DNA from: Flavobacterium sp. SCGC AAA160-P02
GTDB lineage: Bacteria > Bacteroidota > Bacteroidia > Flavobacteriales > Flavobacteriaceae
DNA length: 64,000 bases
Assembly (NCBI GenBank): GCA_000383355.1
Contig: KB911091.1
Location: 1 to 64,000, forward strand
Direction: 5' to 3'
In this document: piece by piece, positions 43,694 through 44,642 of the stretch
Numbering within the stretch: the first letter of the stretch is position 1
Layout of the letters: the number at the start of each line of letters is the position of its first letter
The notes under the pieces: model-generated
Databases searched by the model: none
What the model was told of the DNA's origin: nothing
What the model saw: only the letters and a program-made list of their open reading frames with translations
Made by a program: the position numbers and the translations under genes

Positions 43694-44642
43694 ATGTCTG
43701 AAAATATTGAAAAAATAAAATGTCTAATCATAGGCTCTGGTCCTGCTGGTTACACTGCTGCTATATATGCTGCCAGAGCAGATATGAAACCTATAATGTA
43801 TACAGGTCTTCAAATGGGGGGGCAGCTAACAACAACAACCGAGGTAGATAATTTTCCAGGCTATGCAAATGGTACAGATGGCCCAGCTATGATGGAAGAT
43901 TTAAAGCATCAAGCAGAGCGTTTTGGTACTGAGGTTCGTTTTGGAATGGTAACTGAAGTAGTTTTAAGTACTGAGGTAGGAGGTATTCATCATATCACTG
44001 TAGATGGCTCTAAAAAAATCGAAGCAAATACTGTGATTATTTCTACTGGAGCTACTGCAAAATATTTAGGATTAGAAAGCGAACAACGATTAATTGGAGG
44101 AGGTGTGTCTGCATGTGCAACCTGTGATGGATTCTTTTACAAAGGACAAGATGTAGTGGTTGTTGGTGCTGGAGATACTGCTGCTGAAGAAGCAACGTAT
44201 TTAGCAAATATTTGTAAAAAGGTTACTGTATTGGTTCGTAAAGACTATATGAGAGCTTCAAAAGCAATGCAACACAGGGTAAACAAAACAGAAAACATAG
44301 AGGTATTATACAATACCGAATTAGATGAGGTTTTAGGAGATAATGTAGTAGATGGGGTCAGAGTAGTTAATAATATTTCTGGAGAAAAAAAATGAAATAT
44401 CTGTAATGGGCTTATTCATAGCAATTGGTCACAAGCCAAATACCGACTTATTTAAAGGTGTATTAGATATGGACGAAACAGGCTACTTAATAACTGAAGG
44501 AAAAACAACAAAAACTAACTTACCAGGGGTTTTTGCTGCAGGAGATGTTCAGGATAAAGAATATAGACAGGCGGTTACAGCAGCAGGAACAGGCTGTATG
44601 GCGGCTTTAGATGCAGAAAGATATCTAGGTGCTTTAGCATAA
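43694..44642 (+). pseudogene. trxB: Thioredoxin reductase, frameshifted in an A8 tract
   Basis: Thioredoxin reductase transfers electrons from NADPH via FAD to thioredoxin. Two adjacent frames together encode the whole enzyme. The first (43694-44395) has the FAD motif IGSGPAGYTAA, redox pair CATC (Cys141, Cys144) and NADPH motif VVGAGDTAAEEA. The second, up to 44642, has [12 protein letters not shown] and [13 protein letters not shown]. The break is at eight A (44385-44392), where the first frame meets TGA. Removing one A restores 315 residues, the normal family length. The cause may be a sequencing error, slippage-rescued expression, or a real mutation. No second trxB is visible in the window. 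Confidence 0.9.

Follow-up and report, generated by a model that had tools for sequence, protein, structure and literature searches.

The thioredoxin reductase gene (trxB) of Flavobacterium sp. SCGC AAA160-P02, which encodes an enzyme that bacteria normally require, is split between two frames by one surplus base in the assembled sequence. The gene is intact in its relatives, its downstream piece shows no decay, and no replacement enzyme was found in the genome. We consider it probable (about 0.6) that the surplus base is an error in the draft consensus and that the organism itself probably has an intact trxB. The analysis is centered on a window of 64,000 nucleotides (contig KB911091.1, positions 1 to 64,000), and its coordinates are used throughout.

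A one-base break in trxB

The ATG start codon of trxB is located at position 43694 on the forward strand, and the upstream piece comprises 233 codons and a TGA stop codon (43694-44395). As the original prediction had it, the frame hits this stop codon (44393-44395) directly after an A8 tract (44385-44392). The remainder of the gene is in a different frame, which runs from GAA at 44394 to the TAA codon at 44640-44642. The upstream and downstream pieces match positions 2-222 and 224-300 of the TIGR01292 profile, indicating that almost no sequence is missing between them, and residues ~6-223 and ~234-317 of E. coli TrxB, respectively. Taken separately, the two pieces score 264.1 and 102.1 bits, and no single frame of the window gene exceeds the profile cut-off of 343.45 bits. 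The CATC motif, of the CxxC type, sits in the 233-residue upstream piece, and the motif [10 protein letters not shown] in the downstream piece. The pieces therefore resemble known TrxB enzymes (TIGR01292; E. coli 1TDE and 1F6M) in jointly covering nearly the whole profile and in harboring both motifs, but differ from them in that the last quarter is out of frame by one surplus base. The product of the upstream piece, which is devoid of the ten-residue motif, is presumably inactive, judging from the family. A scan of positions 43500-44900 for promoters and terminators revealed no signal above chance.

The break falls between profile positions 222 and 224 (E. coli residues ~223 and ~234), and an ATG codon in the downstream frame (44406-44408) is present 10 bases past the stop. 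This arrangement could reflect a split enzyme made of two polypeptides, the second initiated at position 44406, with the two meeting in the loop that precedes the C-terminal portion of the FAD domain. A methionine is equally present at this site in the three nearest relatives, in which the gene is intact, and none of the relatives read is split there. A split gene with a new start was rejected on the basis of this shared methionine, and a two-polypeptide enzyme is hardly credible.

The original prediction proposed that removal of one A would restore the frame. This is arithmetically true, and in all 29 alignments to trxB loci from the genus the window carried, on balance, one base too many in the region of the tract. 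The surplus base was placed at 44393 (the T) in nine alignments, at 44385 (in the A run) in nine, and at 44380 in five; the remaining six contained several compensating gaps rather than one surplus position. The nearest relatives, G010, G007, and G014 (84-85% DNA identity), all read GGA GAT AAA AAA GAG ATT TCT (G-D-K-K-E-I-S) at the junction. In comparison to these three genomes, the surplus aligns with the T that follows the run, and with this placement the residues match (E-K-K-E). Assuming an extra A requires an additional Lys-to-Asn change relative to the same three relatives, at a position that is variable in others. Thus, a surplus T at 44393 is the simpler reading of the alignments, although it is not proven. 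Among the three explanations initially offered (an extra A in the read, slippage, or use of another system), the one based on an extra base is the best supported, but the nearest relatives point to the T after the tract rather than to an A within it.

A glutathione peroxidase had been described as a neighbor of trxB. The glutathione peroxidase-like gene of the window (31571-32107, reverse strand) is 11.6 kb away and thus does not qualify as a neighbor; its best NCBIfam matches fall under their cut-offs. On the same strand, four genes of the photolyase/cryptochrome type are present within 10 kb (29163-38998). Domain matches identified DNA_photolyase and FAD_binding_7 in three of them (29163-30461, 34628-36130, and 37661-38998) and DPRP in the fourth (36114-37646), in addition to a TspO/MBR gene at 30931-31398. 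The genes at 29163-38998 are perhaps a light-response or DNA-repair cluster.

Conservation of trxB and selection on the two pieces

A TrxB scoring over the TIGR01292 cut-off was found in 155 of the 166 genomes of the genus, and a match with an E-value of up to 1e-20 in 164 of them. All 128 genomes with a completeness of at least 90% and a contamination of at most 5% had a match. Based on the best E-value per genome, the 11 genomes without an over-cut-off TrxB were G000 (the source genome), G031, G108, G122, G129, G134, G144, G146, G160, G162, and G169, each of which has a completeness below 90%. The frame was tested for openness from the CxxC motif across the hinge. A single frame spanned the break site in 29 of 29 loci from the genus and in 79 of 80 loci from a wider collection, the two collections possibly having organisms in common. 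The sole miss, L095, is a record ending 41 bases past the match to the upstream piece, before the hinge motif. In the other 108 of these 109 loci, all in one frame, the longest A run at the break site ranged from 2 to 7. Programmed recoding of trxB was rejected since the A run and the stop codon are not common to the relatives. trxB is thus ordinary outside the source genome, and in our preferred reading it is an ordinary, single-copy gene within it as well.

In comparison to the three nearest relatives, dN/dS was 0.032-0.034 for 212 codons of the upstream piece and 0.013-0.019 for the last 78 codons of the downstream piece. The latter codons contained 3.5-4.5 nonsynonymous versus 32.5-34.5 synonymous differences, and differences at the first, second, and third codon positions numbered 4/0/34, 4/0/32, and 4/1/33. 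Synonymous divergence from these relatives is high (pS of 0.54-0.65), and by our estimate the downstream piece would have accumulated tens of amino-acid changes had it been unconstrained for much of the history of the lineage; the 3.5-4.5 changes seen are for both branches together. The downstream piece is therefore free of decay and under purifying selection, with a constraint no weaker than that on the upstream piece. It follows that the break is recent, absent from the organism, or read past. The dN/dS values do not separate these possibilities, a low value being equally expected under an error or a recent break.

Candidate replacement reductases

The original prediction also raised the possibility that the cell uses another system, and called for a search for a complete second trxB. 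The genome is a draft of 80 contigs that is 88.82% complete and was taken to be of the metagenome type. Within it, we found no second TrxB over the TIGR01292 cut-off, no ferredoxin-thioredoxin reductase (FTR), and no YpdA over its cut-off. Thus, neither a second trxB nor another system was supported, although a reductase copy could have been missed as the genome is just 88.82% complete. The next-best TIGR01292 match, a 353-residue protein encoded by contig C24 (149.5 bits), was rejected as a second TrxB because no CxxC motif was seen; it resembles the TrxR-like ferredoxin-NADP reductases. A fragment at the end of contig C12 was rejected because it resembles the N-terminal portion of a geranylgeranyl-reductase-type protein, judging from a motif typical of such proteins. 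A plasmid origin was rejected, no near match having been found among plasmids, as was a phage origin, a pattern-based viral-contig scan having returned 11 relatives with identities of at most 63%. Thioredoxins are retained in the genome, with 12 Pfam matches over the cut-off, including three of more than 80 bits. BshC, of the bacillithiol pathway, was also found.

These observations bear on whether trxB was inactivated by a genuine and very recent insertion, the gene being dead, maybe only in a sub-population, and not yet decayed. The break is present in the sequence, the undecayed state of the downstream piece fits a recent event, and bacillithiol might soften the loss of the reductase. The 88.8%-complete genome nonetheless yielded no other thioredoxin reductase of the sort that accompanies a pseudogene whose function has been replaced, and none of the 128 genus genomes of at least 90% completeness lacks trxB. 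Recent inactivation is therefore unlikely, but is the next-best explanation after a consensus error.

Background of breaks in the draft and slippage at the A8 tract

Single-base errors and recent pseudogenes occur in draft genomes, and the break in trxB resembles both in being isolated, in having intact counterparts in relatives, and in being accompanied by a few other breaks in G000 and G010. To estimate this background, 1676 ORFs of at least 100 residues from ~2.0 Mb of G010 were compared with a 741-kb sample of G000. For 475 of the G010 ORFs, the best match in this sample reached an identity of 60% or more; 461 of these were covered over at least 90% of their length and 14 were partially matched. 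Four of the 14 partial matches, including trxB, were flagged as split between frames in G000. Two flagged genes other than trxB were inspected at the DNA level. A conserved gene of 126 residues on contig C1 (~159950; L187) had one base inserted in a short A run relative to G010. In the second case, a gene of 718 residues in G010, ~125 codons were missing and the frame was changed in G000 (C1, ~300550; L194/L195), which appears to be a misassembly or a deletion. The fourth flagged gene, for which a 1112-residue query gave short matches at 60-69% identity, was considered as weak and of the repeat type, and was set aside from the table alone. In the reverse comparison, 465 of 595 G000 ORFs were matched in G010, 451 in full and 14 partially, and six of the latter were flagged as split in G010. 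The window genes at 6281-7534, 9496-12891, and 17311-19032 are each in one open frame here and split between frames in G010. As a side observation, the regions C9:30448-31050 and C79:76247-76849 of G000 gave identical scores and spans for a 445-residue open frame, and these contigs are perhaps redundant.

At least two genes besides trxB thus look broken in the source genome among the 475 comparable genes. Together with the six genes split in G010, they indicate that drafts of this kind carry breaks. Errors or mutations thus interrupt an occasional conserved gene in both genomes, a background that is low but real. A consensus error is favored by the other one-base insertion and the frame-changing deletion in G000, by the six split genes of G010, by the retention of trxB in all 128 near-complete genomes of the genus, its open frame across the break site in relatives, and the constraint on its downstream piece, and by the lack of a detected replacement reductase in a genome that keeps its thioredoxins. 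In the proposed scenario, a consensus error would have inserted the surplus base where A8 meets TGA in the assembled trxB, and the organism, devoid of this base, would read trxB in one frame. Three observations argue in the opposite direction. The rate of breaks is low, as 461 of the 475 comparable genes were covered over at least 90% of their length, a T beside the run (as placed by the nearest relatives) is atypical of run-length errors, and the other broken genes could equally be real mutations.

Runs of this type are ordinary in the genome. The 524 ORFs of at least 150 residues in the 741-kb sample contained 127 A8 runs, 23 longer A runs, 42 T8 runs, and 10 T9 runs, counted without the last 30 bases of each ORF and in frames that are open by construction and were not each checked against relatives. 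A tract of eight A inside a gene is therefore unremarkable here.

The A8-TGA junction also raised the possibility of a genuine insertion tolerated because slippage of RNA polymerase or of the ribosome yields enough full-length TrxB. A study of Blochmannia reports frameshifts at A or T runs in otherwise intact genes, which slippage may correct (PMC3017870). In a laboratory drift of M.HaeIII, functional protein was still made despite indels in a run of eight A, and a run may also allow the bypass of surplus bases of a different kind located at its end (PMC3812077), a case that would fit a T beside A8. The constraint on the downstream frame of trxB is consistent with such a rescue. As in the Blochmannia cases, a constrained and otherwise intact gene has a one-base break at an A run; unlike in these cases, the run is of 8, is not common to relatives, and has the surplus base perhaps beside it. 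Against a rescue, A runs of at least 9 number 23 in 637 kb of ORFs here, versus 153 in the protein-coding regions of B. vafer (PMC3017870).

The direction of slippage has to be considered as well. The frame of trxB would be restored by the loss of one base, by the gain of two, or by a plus-one ribosomal step at AAA-UGA. The addition of a single A leads into a TAA codon (44404-44406), so that slippage would have to remove one base on balance, or add two. Transcript slippage on A or T runs consists mostly of insertions, with few deletions, although in Buchnera deletions, too, become more frequent in longer runs (PMC5574713). For E. coli RNA polymerase, insertions were ~3-fold more frequent than deletions in one gene, and slippage was greater at runs of T than at runs of A (PMC6260861). 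Rescue by slippage is a minority reading because its usual direction would not restore the frame and because the relatives do not share the A8 run, the longest at the site being of 2 to 7 with the gene in one frame in each of the 108 read. We therefore consider it improbable, and still more so the specific case in which a free-living marine flavobacterium would obtain its only TrxB through a slip at A8-TGA, by net loss of one base in the transcript or by a plus-one ribosomal step, with recoding setting the level of a central enzyme. A literature search on thioredoxin reductase and Polaribacter found neither term in any title or abstract retrieved.

Nothing that we found points to an unusual way of reading trxB, and a consensus error is the preferred explanation. 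When a draft genome shows a single one-base break in a gene kept by all near-complete genomes of the genus that were searched, this is mainly a reason for caution and by itself reveals little about the biology. Should the surplus base be real and rescued, slippage rescue of a central enzyme would extend beyond the endosymbionts in which it has been discussed.
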